A program made the translations under genes and the position numbers. Shown in pieces: positions 9,491-36,602 of a DNA stretch of 41,553 nt (the stretch's first letter is position 1; every line of letters begins with the position of its first letter). The stretch is taken from positions 1-41,553 of the forward strand of contig VGWG01000015.1 of NCBI GenBank assembly GCA_016873675.1, written 5' to 3'. This stretch comes from Lentisphaerota bacterium (lineage in GTDB: Bacteria > Verrucomicrobiota > Kiritimatiellia > RFP12 > JAAYNR01). The notes under the pieces were generated by a model. That model worked only from the letters and a program-made list of their open reading frames with translations. It ran no database searches and was not told where the DNA came from.

Positions 9491-11233
9491 TCACAGCAGC
9501 GCGCCGATGTCGGTGGCGGCGATCGTCACGGCGCCGATGCGCCGGGCCTGTCCGCAGAGGGCGTTGTCGTTGCTGGCGAGAATCACGGGAATCTCGGCGT
9601 CGACGCCGCGCAGGAATCGGATGTCGTCGAGCAGGACGGCGTCAGCCCGGTGTTCGCCGACGCCACCGGAGTAGGAGACCCGGACGTTCGGGGCTGGGGT
9701 TTCCTCGCTGGAGACGGGGCCGTCGAACACGATCCAGACGCGGCAGGAGGGGTGGGGGCCGACCACGCGGACGAGGTCCGCGATCATCCGCGATCGCTTC
9801 TCGCGGTCCGGGACAGCCGCGCCCGAGGGCGGCATGTAGCGCCCCTGGAGGGCGAAGAGCAGGTTGTGTCCGTCGATCAGGAGGATGGCCTTGCCGCGGC
9901 CGGTGAGGGCGCGCCGGAGCGCCAGGACGGGCTCGGGCGCCTTTCCCTCCGGCATCTCGCCGCGAGAGAGCAGGGCCGCCTGACGGCGGTTGATCGCGGC
10001 GTCGATCCGGTTGATCGCGCCTGGTTCGAGCACAGCGAACGGGGTGAGCCGTTCGGTCAGCGAACGGATGGCGTAGAGGGCGTTGCCATCGGCGGTGTGG
10101 AGGCGGGCGGTGAGGGTCTCTTCCAGCGGGGAGACAGGCTCATCGATCCTGAGGATGGCGCGGATGCGCTGGATCTCGTCATCGAGTGCTCGGACCGCAG
10201 CGGGGAGTTCGGGAGTCTGCACCAGCGCGTGGGCGAGCGCGTCGCGGGCGCGGGCGCGGGCGGCATCGAGGGCGTCGAGCCGCGCGAGAAGGGTGGCTCG
10301 GTTGCCGGAATGGCGGTCGGCGGCGGCCTGTCTGCGGAGGGCGTGTTCGACCTGTTCAAGCGCATCGCGGTGTCTCATCACGTCGGTGGCAGCCGCGGCC
10401 TCCACGGTGCGCGCATGGGCGATCCAGCCCGCGAATTCGCTGGCCAGCCGGCTGTCGAGCGCGGCGCGCAGACGCTCCTCGCGTTGCGTCCGTTCGCGGC
10501 CCAGTTCGGCCTCCAGCTCGCTGCGCTGACGGATCACCTGTCGTTTCTCGGCGGTTTCCGCATCTAGCCGGGCGGCCAGATCGTCCCGTTCGGCGGTGAG
10601 GGCGTCGGCGAGTTTCTGAAGCCGGACCGCGCGCGCGGCAGAATCCTTGAGCGCGCGAAGCTGGACGCGGAGGTCTCGGAGTTGGTCGTTCAGATGCGCC
10701 TTCTCGTCCTGCCACGCCTCGCGGGTAAGAGTGAGGGTGAAGGGCGGCGCCGTTCCAGCGACGCCGCAGGCGTCCAGCAGTCGGCCGAAGACATCCCGCA
10801 GACGCGCAGTGGCGGCGGCGGGATCGACCGGGGCGAACGGCGGATTCGCGCGCAGCCAGCGGGCGGCGGCCTCGCGGACGGTTTCCCGCTCATCGAGTTG
10901 AAGCGCCAGGAGGATGCGGGCGGGGCCGAAGAGCGCGGCGAGGTCATGGCGCAGGTCGGCGATGGCGGATTCGGAAAGGTCGGCGATCAGGGTGCGGTTG
11001 AGCGAACCGTGCGCCAGCAGCCGCCGCAGCGCGTCCGAGAGTCCGTCGGTCGCCGCCGCCAGAACGCGGAGGCGCGTTCGGATGAGCGCGGTGTTTCCGG
11101 GGCGGAATCCGCCCGACGTGAAGGCCGGATCGGTCGCGGCAAAGGCCGAAACTGCGTCATCCGAAAGGGCGTCAATCACCCGGTCGCGTTCAGCCGAGAG
11201 GGCGTCGGCAAGCGTTGGCGCGGTGTCGGACAT
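9491..11233 (-). CDS. Coiled-coil protein with C-terminal NYN (PIN-like) nuclease domain
   Basis: Protein of 580 aa. The start ATG 11233 (MSDTAPTLADAL) is chosen because residues upstream in the frame overlap pgsA-like coding DNA. About 1-200 is helical with no recognised domain, and 200-420 is long, heptad-rich and Arg/Ala/Glu-rich, predicted coiled coil. From about 445 to the end there is an NYN/YacP-like domain: GKAILLIDGHNLLFALQ, RVWIVFDGP, HRADAVLLDDIRFL and VILASNDNALCGQA. These supply the acidic residues of PIN-like metal-dependent RNases. It probably acts on RNA, but the target is unknown. It lies 14 nt after the phosphatidyltransferase gene and is likely co-transcribed with it, without an obvious functional link. 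Confidence 0.75.
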   Translation of the reverse strand: MSDTAPTLADALSAERDRVIDALSDDAVSAFAATDPAFTSGGFRPGNTALIRTRLRVLAAATDGLSDALRRLLAHGSLNRTLIADLSESAIADLRHDLAALFGPARILLALQLDERETVREAAARWLRANPPFAPVDPAAATARLRDVFGRLLDACGVAGTAPPFTLTLTREAWQDEKAHLNDQLRDLRVQLRALKDSAARAVRLQKLADALTAERDDLAARLDAETAEKRQVIRQRSELEAELGRERTQREERLRAALDSRLASEFAGWIAHARTVEAAAATDVMRHRDALEQVEHALRRQAAADRHSGNRATLLARLDALDAARARARDALAHALVQTPELPAAVRALDDEIQRIRAILRIDEPVSPLEETLTARLHTADGNALYAIRSLTERLTPFAVLEPGAINRIDAAINRRQAALLSRGEMPEGKAPEPVLALRRALTGRGKAILLIDGHNLLFALQGRYMPPSGAAVPDREKRSRMIADLVRVVGPHPSCRVWIVFDGPVSSEETPAPNVRVSYSGGVGEHRADAVLLDDIRFLRGVDAEIPVILASNDNALCGQARRIGAVTIAATDIGALL

Positions 11234-23451: not shown

Positions 23452-23528
23452 TGGTGCGCCTGGCGGGGATCGAACCCACAACCTTCAGCTCCGGAGGCTG
23501 ACGCTCTGTCCAATTGAGCTACAGGCGC
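23452..23528 (-). tRNA. tRNA-Arg (anticodon CCG)
   Basis: On the minus strand the acceptor stem is GCGCCTG/CAGGCGC. The D arm has GCTC-AATTGGACA-GAGC, and the anticodon stem TCAGC/GCTGA encloses loop CTCCGGA, giving anticodon CCG for codon CGG. A 5-nt variable region and a T arm GTGGG-TTCGATC-CCCGC follow. The discriminator A and the CCA end are encoded (ACCA at 23455-23452). Total 77 nt; all stems pair cleanly. Confidence 0.96.
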
Positions 23529-27188: not shown

Positions 27189-27557
27189 ATGACCAACTAC
27201 AAACTGGTGATGCCTGAACACTTGAACCACTACGGGTTTCTCTTCGGCGGCAATCTCCTCAAGTGGGTTGACGAATTCGCCTGGATGGCGGCGAGCCTGG
27301 ACTATCCGGGATGCCAGCTCGTGACGATCGCCATGGACGCGGTGGAGTTTAAGAAGGGGGCTCGTGACGGGGCAATCCTCCGCTTCGAGATCGAGCGGGC
27401 GCGCGAGGGGCATACGTCGGTGACCTATCGCGTGATGGTTTTCCGGCGGACGCTGCACGAAATGACGGAAGAGGAGATGTTCGGCACCGCCATCACCTTT
27501 GTGCGGGTCGGCGCGGGCGGGGTCAAGCTGCCGTTGCGGGACGCGGCCGGAATCTGA
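27189..27557 (+). CDS. Hotdog-fold acyl-CoA thioesterase (YciA/BFIT-like)
   Basis: Protein of 122 aa. It has the single hotdog domain of acyl-CoA thioesterases: MPEHLNHYGFLFGGNLLKWVDEFAWMAA contains the N/H-x-x-G-xx-GG-xLL-x-W-x-D active-site pattern of the YciA/cytosolic acyl-CoA hydrolase group. VEFKKGARDGAILRFEI forms the next strands. It should hydrolyse acyl-CoA to free acid and CoA; chain length cannot be read. ATG 27189 follows AGGGAG at good spacing, while the frame upstream runs into the tsaE start. It is divergent from tsaE and probably monocistronic, followed by the repeat-rich region 27558-28124. Confidence 0.85.
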   Translation: MTNYKLVMPEHLNHYGFLFGGNLLKWVDEFAWMAASLDYPGCQLVTIAMDAVEFKKGARDGAILRFEIERAREGHTSVTYRVMVFRRTLHEMTEEEMFGTAITFVRVGAGGVKLPLRDAAGI

Positions 27558-27610
27558 CGCATGCCACAGGAAACGCGCGGAAGTGGGTATGTGAGTCTGT
27601 GCACCGCGCC

Positions 27611-27639
27611 GGTAGGGCGGCGGCGTCCCGCCGCGCCGC
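27611..27639 (+). repeat. GTAG-headed REP element, copy 1
   Basis: GGTAG followed by a GC-only hairpin (GGCGGCG... CGCCGCGCC) of 29 nt. The same element with one substitution and one inserted C lies in the opposite orientation at 38299-38328. A GTAG head before a hairpin is the hallmark of REP sequences mobilised by RAYT transposases, and a RAYT gene is in this window. Short direct repeats ATGCCACAGG occur on both sides, near 27563 and 27652. Confidence 0.75.
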
Positions 27640-27670
27640 AGATCAAGACGAATGCCACAGGGAGTGGGGG

Positions 27671-27895
27671 AAGGTCCGTCCCTAGTCAGGTTCTTGGGAT
27701 CTCCATCCCGATGAAGCGCTTGCAGAACCGGGGAAGGATGTGCGGTTCTGATATGCGGACCTTTGTCGTGAGCTTTGTCGCGAGCTTTGTTGAACCCTCT
27801 ATGGGCGAACCGGTTGCGATTCGACAACGCTCACGACAAAGCTCGCGACAAAGAGGGTGGAATGGCTTAACTTAGCGCCATTCGGGACGGACCTT
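27671..27895. repeat. Nested inverted-repeat element in a gene-free stretch
   Basis: The exact 12-bp inverted repeat AAGGTCCGTCCC (27671-27682) / GGGACGGACCTT (27884-27895) encloses the long hairpin at 27761-27853. The arrangement, about 225 bp without a coding frame I can credit, resembles a small non-autonomous mobile element. The rest of 27558-28124 shows no gene; it includes a G-run (27921-27933) and AT-richer DNA before the SAF gene. Confidence 0.6.
27761..27853. repeat. Long hairpin with 34-nt arms built of tandem subunits
   Basis: Arms 27761-27794 and 27820-27853 pair over 34 positions with four differences, two of which would be G-U wobbles in RNA from the plus strand. The loop is 25 nt. 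Each arm consists of two related 12-13-nt units, CTTTGTCG(T/C)GAGC, in swapped order, plus a third degenerate unit. A promoter or T-tract is not evident, so it is more likely a repeat element than a terminator. Confidence 0.8.
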
Positions 27896-28124
27896 CCGTC
27901 CTTCCGCCTCAGCCGGGCTGAGTGGGGGGGGGGGACTCAGTCCCAGGCCAAACCTTCTGCTTATCTCCTTCCGACTATCCTTACGATCCGCAAGATAGGC
28001 CGCAAGTCGGCATCATGACATCCCAATTTCCGTTGCTGCGTCCACCGTATTCATCTATTATCTACACCGTTGTGGAGATAGCCTGAAACGGCTTGATCAC
28101 TTGTTCACCAAGGAGATGATGCCG

Positions 28125-28463
28125 ATGAAAATCAAGAACCTGATAGGCATAGTGACAGTACTTTCGGTTTCACTCGCCGGATCGATGTGTATGGCACGTG
28201 ATTCCGGGATGACCGTCGCTGTGGCGACAACAAACCTGCAATCTGGAGCAGTACTTGCAACGAACAACATTGCCCAAGGGTTTGTAAAAGATGCGAATTT
28301 GCCAGATGACTTCATCACCGGACAAGATATGAAAGTCCTGTTAGGAGTTAAGCTCGCAAAGCCGGTCAAGAAAGGGGAACCCATCAAGAAGTCTGATCTC
28401 GACAATCCCCCCAAAGCCGTTCAGAGCTCAAAACCGAAAGTCTTTGACTTGACAATCGAGTGA
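28125..28463 (+). CDS. Small secreted SAF-domain protein
   Basis: Protein of 112 aa from ATG 28125, chosen because AAGGAG (28110-28115) lies 9 nt upstream; two earlier in-frame ATGs lie too close to it. Residues 1-24 form a signal peptide (MKIKNLIGIVTVLSVSLAGS, predicted cleavage after CMA). The remainder is one SAF domain as in CpaB/RcpC and FlgA: VAVATTNLQSGAVLATNNIA, then GVKLAKPVKKGEPIKKSDL. Such domains are usually N-terminal modules of larger pilus or flagellar assembly proteins, and no partner genes are near. The coding sequence is visibly less GC-rich than its neighbours, hinting at different origin. The function is unknown. Confidence 0.7.
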   Translation: MKIKNLIGIVTVLSVSLAGSMCMARDSGMTVAVATTNLQSGAVLATNNIAQGFVKDANLPDDFITGQDMKVLLGVKLAKPVKKGEPIKKSDLDNPPKAVQSSKPKVFDLTIE

Positions 28464-35376: not shown

Positions 35377-36414
35377 TCACCCGCCGGGCGCCGCAATCGG
35401 CTTCAGGCGCAGGTCGCGGGCCGCGCACAGTCCTCCCCAGTCCGCAAAACGGAGCGGTCGCGCCCCGTCTTTGCGCTTCGGGCCGAAGTTGTCACGGTGT
35501 TGCTGGAAGACCTCGTTCACAAACGCCTTGCTGCCGATCGCCAGACCGTCGCTGAAATAACGAACCCGGCATCGCAAAACATCCCGCAACGGCAGTTCCC
35601 CTCGCTGTTTCACGATCTGTTGAACCTGTTTCACGGTAAGAGTCGGCGGCAACGCCGCGCCGCCAGTGGTGCGTCCGCTTTCAGGGCCGGCTGCATCAAT
35701 CAGATGCCTGTAACGTGATGCAACCGTACGCCAACACCCGGCATGCGCCTCGCCAAAAATCAGCGCAAGTCCCTCGCGGGCCCGTTTCCCGCCAGCCACG
35801 GCCTCGCCGTAGCCGCACCAGGCGTAGTCCCGTGGATCGCTCACAATCCCCGCGCGCACGGCATTGAGATCAATGTACGCCGCAATCGTCGCCAGCGCGC
35901 CCACACTCTGGCGCTCCCGCAGCGCATGCGACGGCGGCTCGATCATCACGCTCTTGAATCGGTCCTCCCACAGCGTGCCGGTCCGTCCCTTCCGCCGGTT
36001 GTACCATTGCGTGAACCGTTGCTTCACCGTCTTCACAAACGACCCCGCATCACACATCCGCACGCGCAGCCGATCCTGCTCCTCCTGCACCCGAGTATCC
36101 AACCCGTGCGTCCGCCACAACGCCCATTGATCCAGTATCGCCACGACCTCCCGACGGTCATACATTGCCGCCAGGCGTTCCACAATTTCCGCTTCGCCAA
36201 GCTCGCGCTTCGCAGGCACCTCGGCCAGAATATGGAAATGATTGGAGAGGATCGCATAGGTCAGCACCCGTACGCCACTGAACGTCTCGACTCCGCGCAT
36301 CAACTCCCGAAACTTCTCCCGCTCCACGTCCCCCAGAATCATCTGCCGGTCCACCACCCGGCTGATGCAGTGATAATAACCCTTCCCATCCGCTGTGATC
36401 CGTGATGCTCGCAT
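35377..36414 (-). CDS. REP-associated tyrosine transposase (RAYT, Y1/HUH family)
   Basis: Protein of 345 aa of the IS200-like Y1 transposase superfamily. The N-terminus MRASRITADGKGYYHCISRV is typical of RAYTs. The HUH metal site is NHFHIL (His59, His61), and the probable catalytic tyrosine is Tyr138 in RFTQWYNRRKG, followed by GTLWEDRFKSVMIE. AYIDLNAVRAGIVSDPRDY and WCGYGEA are also family phrases. A 150-residue C-terminal extension, perhaps DNA-binding, makes it longer than minimal members. ATG 36414 is preferred over the frame's first ATG because a GAGGGGG Shine-Dalgarno precedes it. A GTAG-headed REP-like sequence lies about 80 nt upstream. It should nick and move REP palindromes. The gene looks intact. 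Confidence 0.9.
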   Translation of the reverse strand: MRASRITADGKGYYHCISRVVDRQMILGDVEREKFRELMRGVETFSGVRVLTYAILSNHFHILAEVPAKRELGEAEIVERLAAMYDRREVVAILDQWALWRTHGLDTRVQEEQDRLRVRMCDAGSFVKTVKQRFTQWYNRRKGRTGTLWEDRFKSVMIEPPSHALRERQSVGALATIAAYIDLNAVRAGIVSDPRDYAWCGYGEAVAGGKRAREGLALIFGEAHAGCWRTVASRYRHLIDAAGPESGRTTGGAALPPTLTVKQVQQIVKQRGELPLRDVLRCRVRYFSDGLAIGSKAFVNEVFQQHRDNFGPKRKDGARPLRFADWGGLCAARDLRLKPIAAPGG

Positions 36415-36495
36415 GACAGCCCCCTCTCTCTGCGGTTGTAGCGGGGCAATGTTAGCACATCGTAGTTGCCATATCCACAACAAGTGACAGATTAC

Positions 36496-36518: not shown

Positions 36519-36602
36519 TTGCTCCGCAACCGATCCGAAGGGGTTCTGCAAGAGCCTCGATTAAGTAACCCTCATCAGAACCGCCATGCGCCCACGGGTG
36601 CG

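Follow-up and report, generated by a model that had tools for sequence, protein, structure and literature searches.

Insertion sequences of the IS4 family, which duplicate about 10-13 bp of their target site, and the mini-transposons derived from them are the closest described relatives of the locus considered here. The likeness consists in a terminal repeat identical with that of elements encoding an NF033592 / PF01609 transposase, in target duplication and in the lack of coding capacity, whereas the cargo differs, being a hairpin of host repeats and not the deleted interior of an insertion sequence. Non-autonomous mini-transposons (MITEs) often have only their ends in common with the parent insertion sequence, as stated in the relevant passage of PMC3852290. 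In BrickBuilt of Porphyromonas gingivalis, a minisatellite lies inside a MITE (PMC4596501), and this element resembles the present case in that a tandem-repeat array of variable unit number serves as cargo. However, its direct repeats of 23 nt, IS5-like ends and 4-bp type duplications set it apart from the inverted arrays that make up a hairpin here.

Other precedents concern REPs, for which the general background, including that of their associated tyrosine transposases (RAYTs), is found in part of PMC2817692. ISRm22 is described, in the pertinent section of PMC1525189, as an IS4-family element inserted in REPs; insertion of an IS4-family element into REP palindromes is seen here as well, but here it is mini-elements that have inserted, and into a palindrome specific to the window's genus. 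For CGTC REPs, the sections of PMC3733652 that bear on this question report no dedicated transposase and place some REP dimers within longer palindromes. The likeness to such GTAG/CGTC REPs, REP dimers and TIRtrons is that the cargo of elements like L147 (see below) looks like facing CGTC-type palindromes, and the TIRYT motif GGGGWSAS given in that report resembles the target consensus found here; the difference is that CGTC REPs have no associated transposase according to that account, whereas here such hairpins lie between IS4-type ends. Since REP dimers, ISRm22 in REPs, a minisatellite MITE and MITEs sharing only their ends with an insertion sequence have all been published, the ingredients are already known individually. 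The combination of IS4-type ends, a host-repeat hairpin as cargo and insertion into a REP-like palindrome was not found in the literature searched, and neither were the strings of the terminal inverted repeat TIR1 described below.

Structure of the window copy

The window, that is, the whole analysed stretch of 41,553 nucleotides, belongs to a genome assembled in 218 contigs (G000). The feature lies between the end of a 4HBT thioesterase gene at 27557 and the start of an SAF/ChapFlgA gene at about 28101, in agreement with the initial annotation, which had placed it in gene-free DNA; a 104-codon frame at 27561-27875 is a mechanical open reading frame only, and no convincing gene overlaps the feature. 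We consider it highly probable that a decayed MITE, derived from an IS4-family insertion sequence, is present here, which carries the hairpin as passenger cargo and has lost its left end. Its parts are as follows.

27669..27682, minus strand: left copy (half) of a REP-like palindrome, GGAAGGTCCGTCCC, forming the left arm of the outer inverted repeat (exact inverted repeat; motif dispersed in the genome)
27683..27741, no strand: segment occupying the expected position of the left TIR1 (left TIR1 absent; no homology to the copy on contig C56)
27742..27864, plus strand: mini-element interior common to the window and C56, containing the hairpin (C56 alignment, 85% identity)
27761..27794, plus strand: left hairpin arm, 12-nt units CTTTGTCGTGAG / CTTTGTCGCGAG (arm complementarity, unit search)
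27820..27853, plus strand: right hairpin arm, the reverse complement of the left-arm units with their order swapped (arm complementarity, unit search)
27865..27883, minus strand: right terminal inverted repeat TIR1, GAATGGCGCTAAGTTAAGC (26 genome sites; at least 107 stretches of bacterial and archaeal genomes; ends of the IS4-family elements L139 and L167)
27884..27894, plus strand: 11-bp target-site motif GGGACGGACCT (placed and sized like the 11-bp duplications of relatives)
27884..27901, plus strand: right copy of the REP-like palindrome, GGGACGGACCTTCCGTCC, of which 27884-27897 is the right arm of the outer inverted repeat (inverted repeat, dispersed motif)

The hairpin with arms of 34 nt built from repeat units, as it had been described initially, was confirmed: the arms are composed of 12-nt units, are 88% complementary and enclose a loop of 25 nt. 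All four exact occurrences of CTTTGTCGYGAGC in the window fall within these arms, and at up to two mismatches there are five sites against 2.77 expected, the fifth of which, at 11132, has two mismatches. The outer inverted repeat is also present and exact, but it extends over 14 bp and not over the 12 bp first reported. The form closest to its left palindrome half is GGGGAAGGCCCGTCCCTAGG of locus L332, and within the adjoining segment 27716-27738 resembles, by eye, another repeat of the genome, GCGCTTGCAGAACCGACGAAGGAG. No left TIR1 was found in 27600-27800, where the best match covers 10 of 19 positions, and clear homology between the window and C56 begins at 27742. The window copy has no direct flanking repeat; the left direct partner of the 11-bp motif is absent, and the flanking motif is inverted instead. 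The window element is a mosaic.

Two neighbouring sequences were also observed. Immediately left of the feature, at 27608-27663, there is a REP-type palindrome, GTAGGGC...GCCGC, which has dozens of matches in the assembly G002, and at 27924-27934 a run of 11 G lies within the short palindrome CTGAGT...ACTCAG.

Terminal repeat and IS4-family elements

A genome-wide search for further copies, which had been proposed initially, did find copies, and these have a common terminal repeat. The 14 rows obtained from the window's genome with 27640-27920 as the DNA query consist of the window on both strands, C56, and short matches, most of them at the right end; C56 is the sole other long match (85% over query positions 131-257, both strands), and its copy has the inverted ends TCCCGAATGGCGCTAAGTTAAGC...GCTTAACTTAGCGCCATTCGGGA, i.e. 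TIR1 on both sides. With up to three mismatches allowed, TTAACTTAGCGCCATTC was located 26 times in the genome, and the reversed pattern 3 times. Eight clear inverted TIR1 pairs of 115-163 bp were recognised, on C5, C24 (two), C56, C95, C105 and C127 (two), and a degenerate ninth pair at C24:5980/6023. The eight clear pairs are dispersed copies without a transposase gene. The interiors of seven of them differ from that of the window and form a hairpin with arms of TAATCN hexamer arrays, and the 12-nt hairpin is confined in this genome to the window and C56 (eight unit matches, six of them in these hairpins and two weak ones with three mismatches).

The terminal repeat is by no means restricted to this genome. 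Scanned for exact matches to the 18-bp end, genomes of bacteria and archaea yielded at least 107 stretches, and the phyla among the matches listed include Verrucomicrobiota, Lentisphaerae, Proteobacteria, Cyanobacteria, Acidobacteriota and others; within the window's own phylum, 16 of 288 sampled genomes, G000 included, have an exact match. A phage collection gave no match. The at least 107 stretches hold 53 TIR1 pairs, six of which are longer than 450 bp. L139 and L167 are about 1.55 kb long with one long frame each, and these frames match the IS4-family transposase (NF033592, E 4e-62; PF01609). The first element at L186 also encodes a PF01609 (DDE_Tnp_1) transposase, L105 and L168 have similar frames by eye, and the second L186 element, the ends of which are more diverged, holds a Y1 transposase instead. 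The family shares its terminal repeats with IS4-family elements (L139, L167, L186), as does the window copy at its right end. The nearest plasmid matches of the L139 protein are below 60% identity.

Two arrangements at such loci are recorded here in their own right. At 2220-4043 of L186 (Acidobacteriota) the Y1 transposase gene between TIR1-like ends directly adjoins the IS4-family element with TIR1, and at L074 (G002:C9) the palindrome GGCGCCTTATGTTGCGCGCAACATAAGGCGC takes the place of the normal left end in a TIR1 element.

An IS4-family transposase acting in trans would bind the terminal repeat GAATGGCGCTAAGTTAAG and paste the element into a GGGACGGRCCT site inside the REP-like palindrome, with duplication of 11 bp; we infer such transposition in this lineage, as we do the routes by which the hairpin may have been captured and the left end lost. 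A transposase close to that of L139 was not found in G000, G001 or G002: the sole match in G000 has 29% identity over 84 residues, and there is none in the other two. Judging from the assembled sequence, the helper transposase appears to be missing from these three assemblies. As the window copy has no left TIR1 and a close transposase was not found in the genome, it is probably an immobile remnant, the left terminal repeat of which would have been lost and replaced.

Target site and REP-like palindrome

Comparison of 39 element flanks from 80 of these loci identified 11 bp as the only register with a strong flank match (0.83 against 0.44 after re-pairing); at L141 and L154 the flanks match at 12. 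Among the at least 107 stretches, the 11-bp flanks are identical in 22 of 52 TIR1 pairs, a duplication which the wider family has and of which the window copy retains no direct repeat; they match at 10 or more positions in 30 of the 52 and at 9 or more in 34, against a re-paired mean of 0.98 at the latter threshold. The site consensus is approximately GGGTCAGRCCC, in the window's genus mostly GGGACGGRCCT. In the window's genome the direct flanks, compared by eye, agree at 11 of 11 positions on C95, at 10 at C127:3461, at 9 on C105 and at 8 at C24:4428, the C5 flank has an additional 9-nt piece, and in three of the eight clear pairs (C56, C127:4405 and C24:6381) the flanks do not match in direct orientation. 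These imperfect or non-direct flanks could have been caused by recombination between copies or by misassembly. An empty site was not found, and a search of G001 and G002 did not find the neighbouring 4HBT protein.

The motif GGGACGGRCCTTC matches 55 sites of the window's genome at up to one mismatch, against 14 for the control. By coordinates, at least 9 of the 55 adjoin TIR1, and several of the remainder are free-standing GGACGGAAGGTCCGTCC palindromes or variants of them, four having been seen in tandem pairs (L330-L333). Since the GGGACGGRCCTTC/GGACGGAAGGTCCGTCC motif is dispersed and stands alone in the genome, the outer inverted repeat is most likely formed by two facing copies of a REP-like palindrome, the right one of which holds the insertion. 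The initial view of a single nested 225-bp element was rejected on these grounds: the outer repeat corresponds to two copies of the dispersed palindrome serving as target, and on the left no TIR1 is present. Its suggestion of a MITE-like element, by contrast, gains support from the other copies, the shared terminal repeat, the 11-bp target duplications of relatives and the full-length IS4-family elements. For a site-specific recombination site, also named initially, no sign emerged from these analyses.

If a RAYT had spread the feature as a REP/BIME-type element, the outer inverted repeat would be a REP pair and the hairpin the DNA between, which would account for the REP-like palindromes on both sides; the right boundary of the hairpin segment is, however, TIR1, C56 has TIR1 on both sides, and the 11-bp duplications fit an IS4-type element. 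The same window does contain a Y1 (RAYT-type) transposase gene (35377-36483, minus strand, 368 aa, PF01797 E 2.3e-7), which is one of five matches in the genome, but it lies 7.5 kb from the feature. There is also a copy of the motif about 100 bp from the Y1 match on C136, and on C72 (L331, G000:C72:14150-14670) a truncated protein related to the Y1 protein of the window (74% identity, 68 residues) follows two tandem GGACGGAAGGTCCGTCC palindromes, yet the palindrome is mostly found without such a hairpin. We therefore regard spread by a RAYT as improbable and retain the decayed IS4-type MITE.

A second family of terminal repeats was noticed beside the Y1 gene. One of its ends, GGGCGCATGGCRGTTCTGATGAGG, is located at 36570-36593, about 90 bp beyond the gene start, and mini-elements with this end occur in the window's genome at L316, L324, L317 and others, where TAATCN arrays adjoin both ends. 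By eye, two copies have 9-bp direct flanks, TACGTCGCC in L316 and TGCAAGCGC in L324. L334 (G000:C23:11500-12100) is a chimera of a second-family left end, a hexamer hairpin and a right TIR1; hairpins may be recombination joints between element families.

Hairpin cargo

In the decayed MITE, the interior hairpin would be passenger DNA, consisting of two inverted arrays of the family's 12-nt repeat. In G001, which represents another genus of the family, arrays of the 12-nt unit, mostly of 2-4 units, occur without TIR1, and GGCGCTAAGTTAAG has no exact match there; most of the 18 stretches inspected by eye hold one array, L240 and L242 two facing arrays. The unit belongs to the repeats of this bacterial family, which also carries it on its own. 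The window and C56 copies differ by exactly one 12-nt unit per arm, which is a single comparison. Among 28 hexamer cargos (TIR1 on both sides in 18, on one side in 7 and on neither in 3), the array register is kept in 27, and the arrays therefore change by whole units.

These arrays also bear on the structured RNA likewise raised in the initial annotation, or on a transcript-end element, kept by selection. The fold of 27660-27905 is very strong (-134.1 kcal/mol, where 200 shuffles average -87.4 and none is as good; z -9.1), but the feature is without an Rfam match, the sole match in the window being a tRNA at 23455-23528, and the interiors of TIR1 mini-elements are unrelated across phyla. The feature lies downstream of a gene, and 27400-28300 has two terminator-like matches against 0.8 expected. 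Compensatory change was nevertheless not seen in the hexamer class: in 24 elements, facing units agree in their variable bases at 0.143, and shuffled units at 0.167. Arm lengths, counted without unrelated loop matches, show no significant correlation (r 0.29, p 0.14, 28 elements). This speaks against selection for pairing and in favour of independently changing arrays. The covariance analysis of copies proposed at the outset thus gave no covariation in the hexamer class, and the 12-nt class comprises two copies, which are too few. An initial arm-matching test, in which orientation was not normalised (0.147 against 0.347 shuffled; 29 arrays, three from other genomes), was set aside; after normalisation and removal of the outside loci L103, L138 and L185, the result did not differ from shuffling. 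Selection as an RNA is accordingly a very unlikely explanation. A chimera of repeats misjoined in a draft metagenome bin is likewise very unlikely in spite of the 218 contigs, the many repeat copies at contig ends and the missing left TIR1 and inverted flanks at several copies, because the junction between interior and TIR1 recurs independently at C56 and at least 27742-27883 is therefore not a chance join.

Among 80 of the at least 107 loci, strong hairpins were present in 15 of 36 interiors against 7 of 288 random flank controls, and in 12 of 29 against 15 of 156 noncoding controls, three interiors having no noncoding control; when all of the at least 107 loci are taken, 14 of 34 distinct interiors and 19 of 150 noncoding controls fold with z below -3 (Fisher p 3e-4). 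Both noncoding comparisons exclude near-duplicate interiors, and interiors shorter than 40 nt and elements beyond the length limit were left out of all three. The over-representation of hairpin cargo weakens under stricter controls. The L147 cargo, which has the look of two CGTC-tagged palindromes facing each other, is repeated in the Thiogranum genome G003, and its best 30 places there have TIR1-like ends (up to five mismatches) on both sides in 17 cases, on one side in 10, some of these at contig ends, and on neither in 3.

The window copy itself is a remnant only. Tentatively, and with more doubt than confidence, we suggest that IS4-type ends could be a vehicle of general use, which takes up and multiplies any hairpin-forming repeats of the host, such as the tandem arrays of the window's genus and the CGTC-like pairs of Thiogranum. 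If TIR1 elements package hairpin repeats, they would connect two classes of bacterial repeats which tend to be studied separately. If true, the vehicle would be one route for the spread of REPs without their own transposase, and would offer a testable answer to the question left open in PMC3733652 of how REPs without a dedicated transposase multiply.
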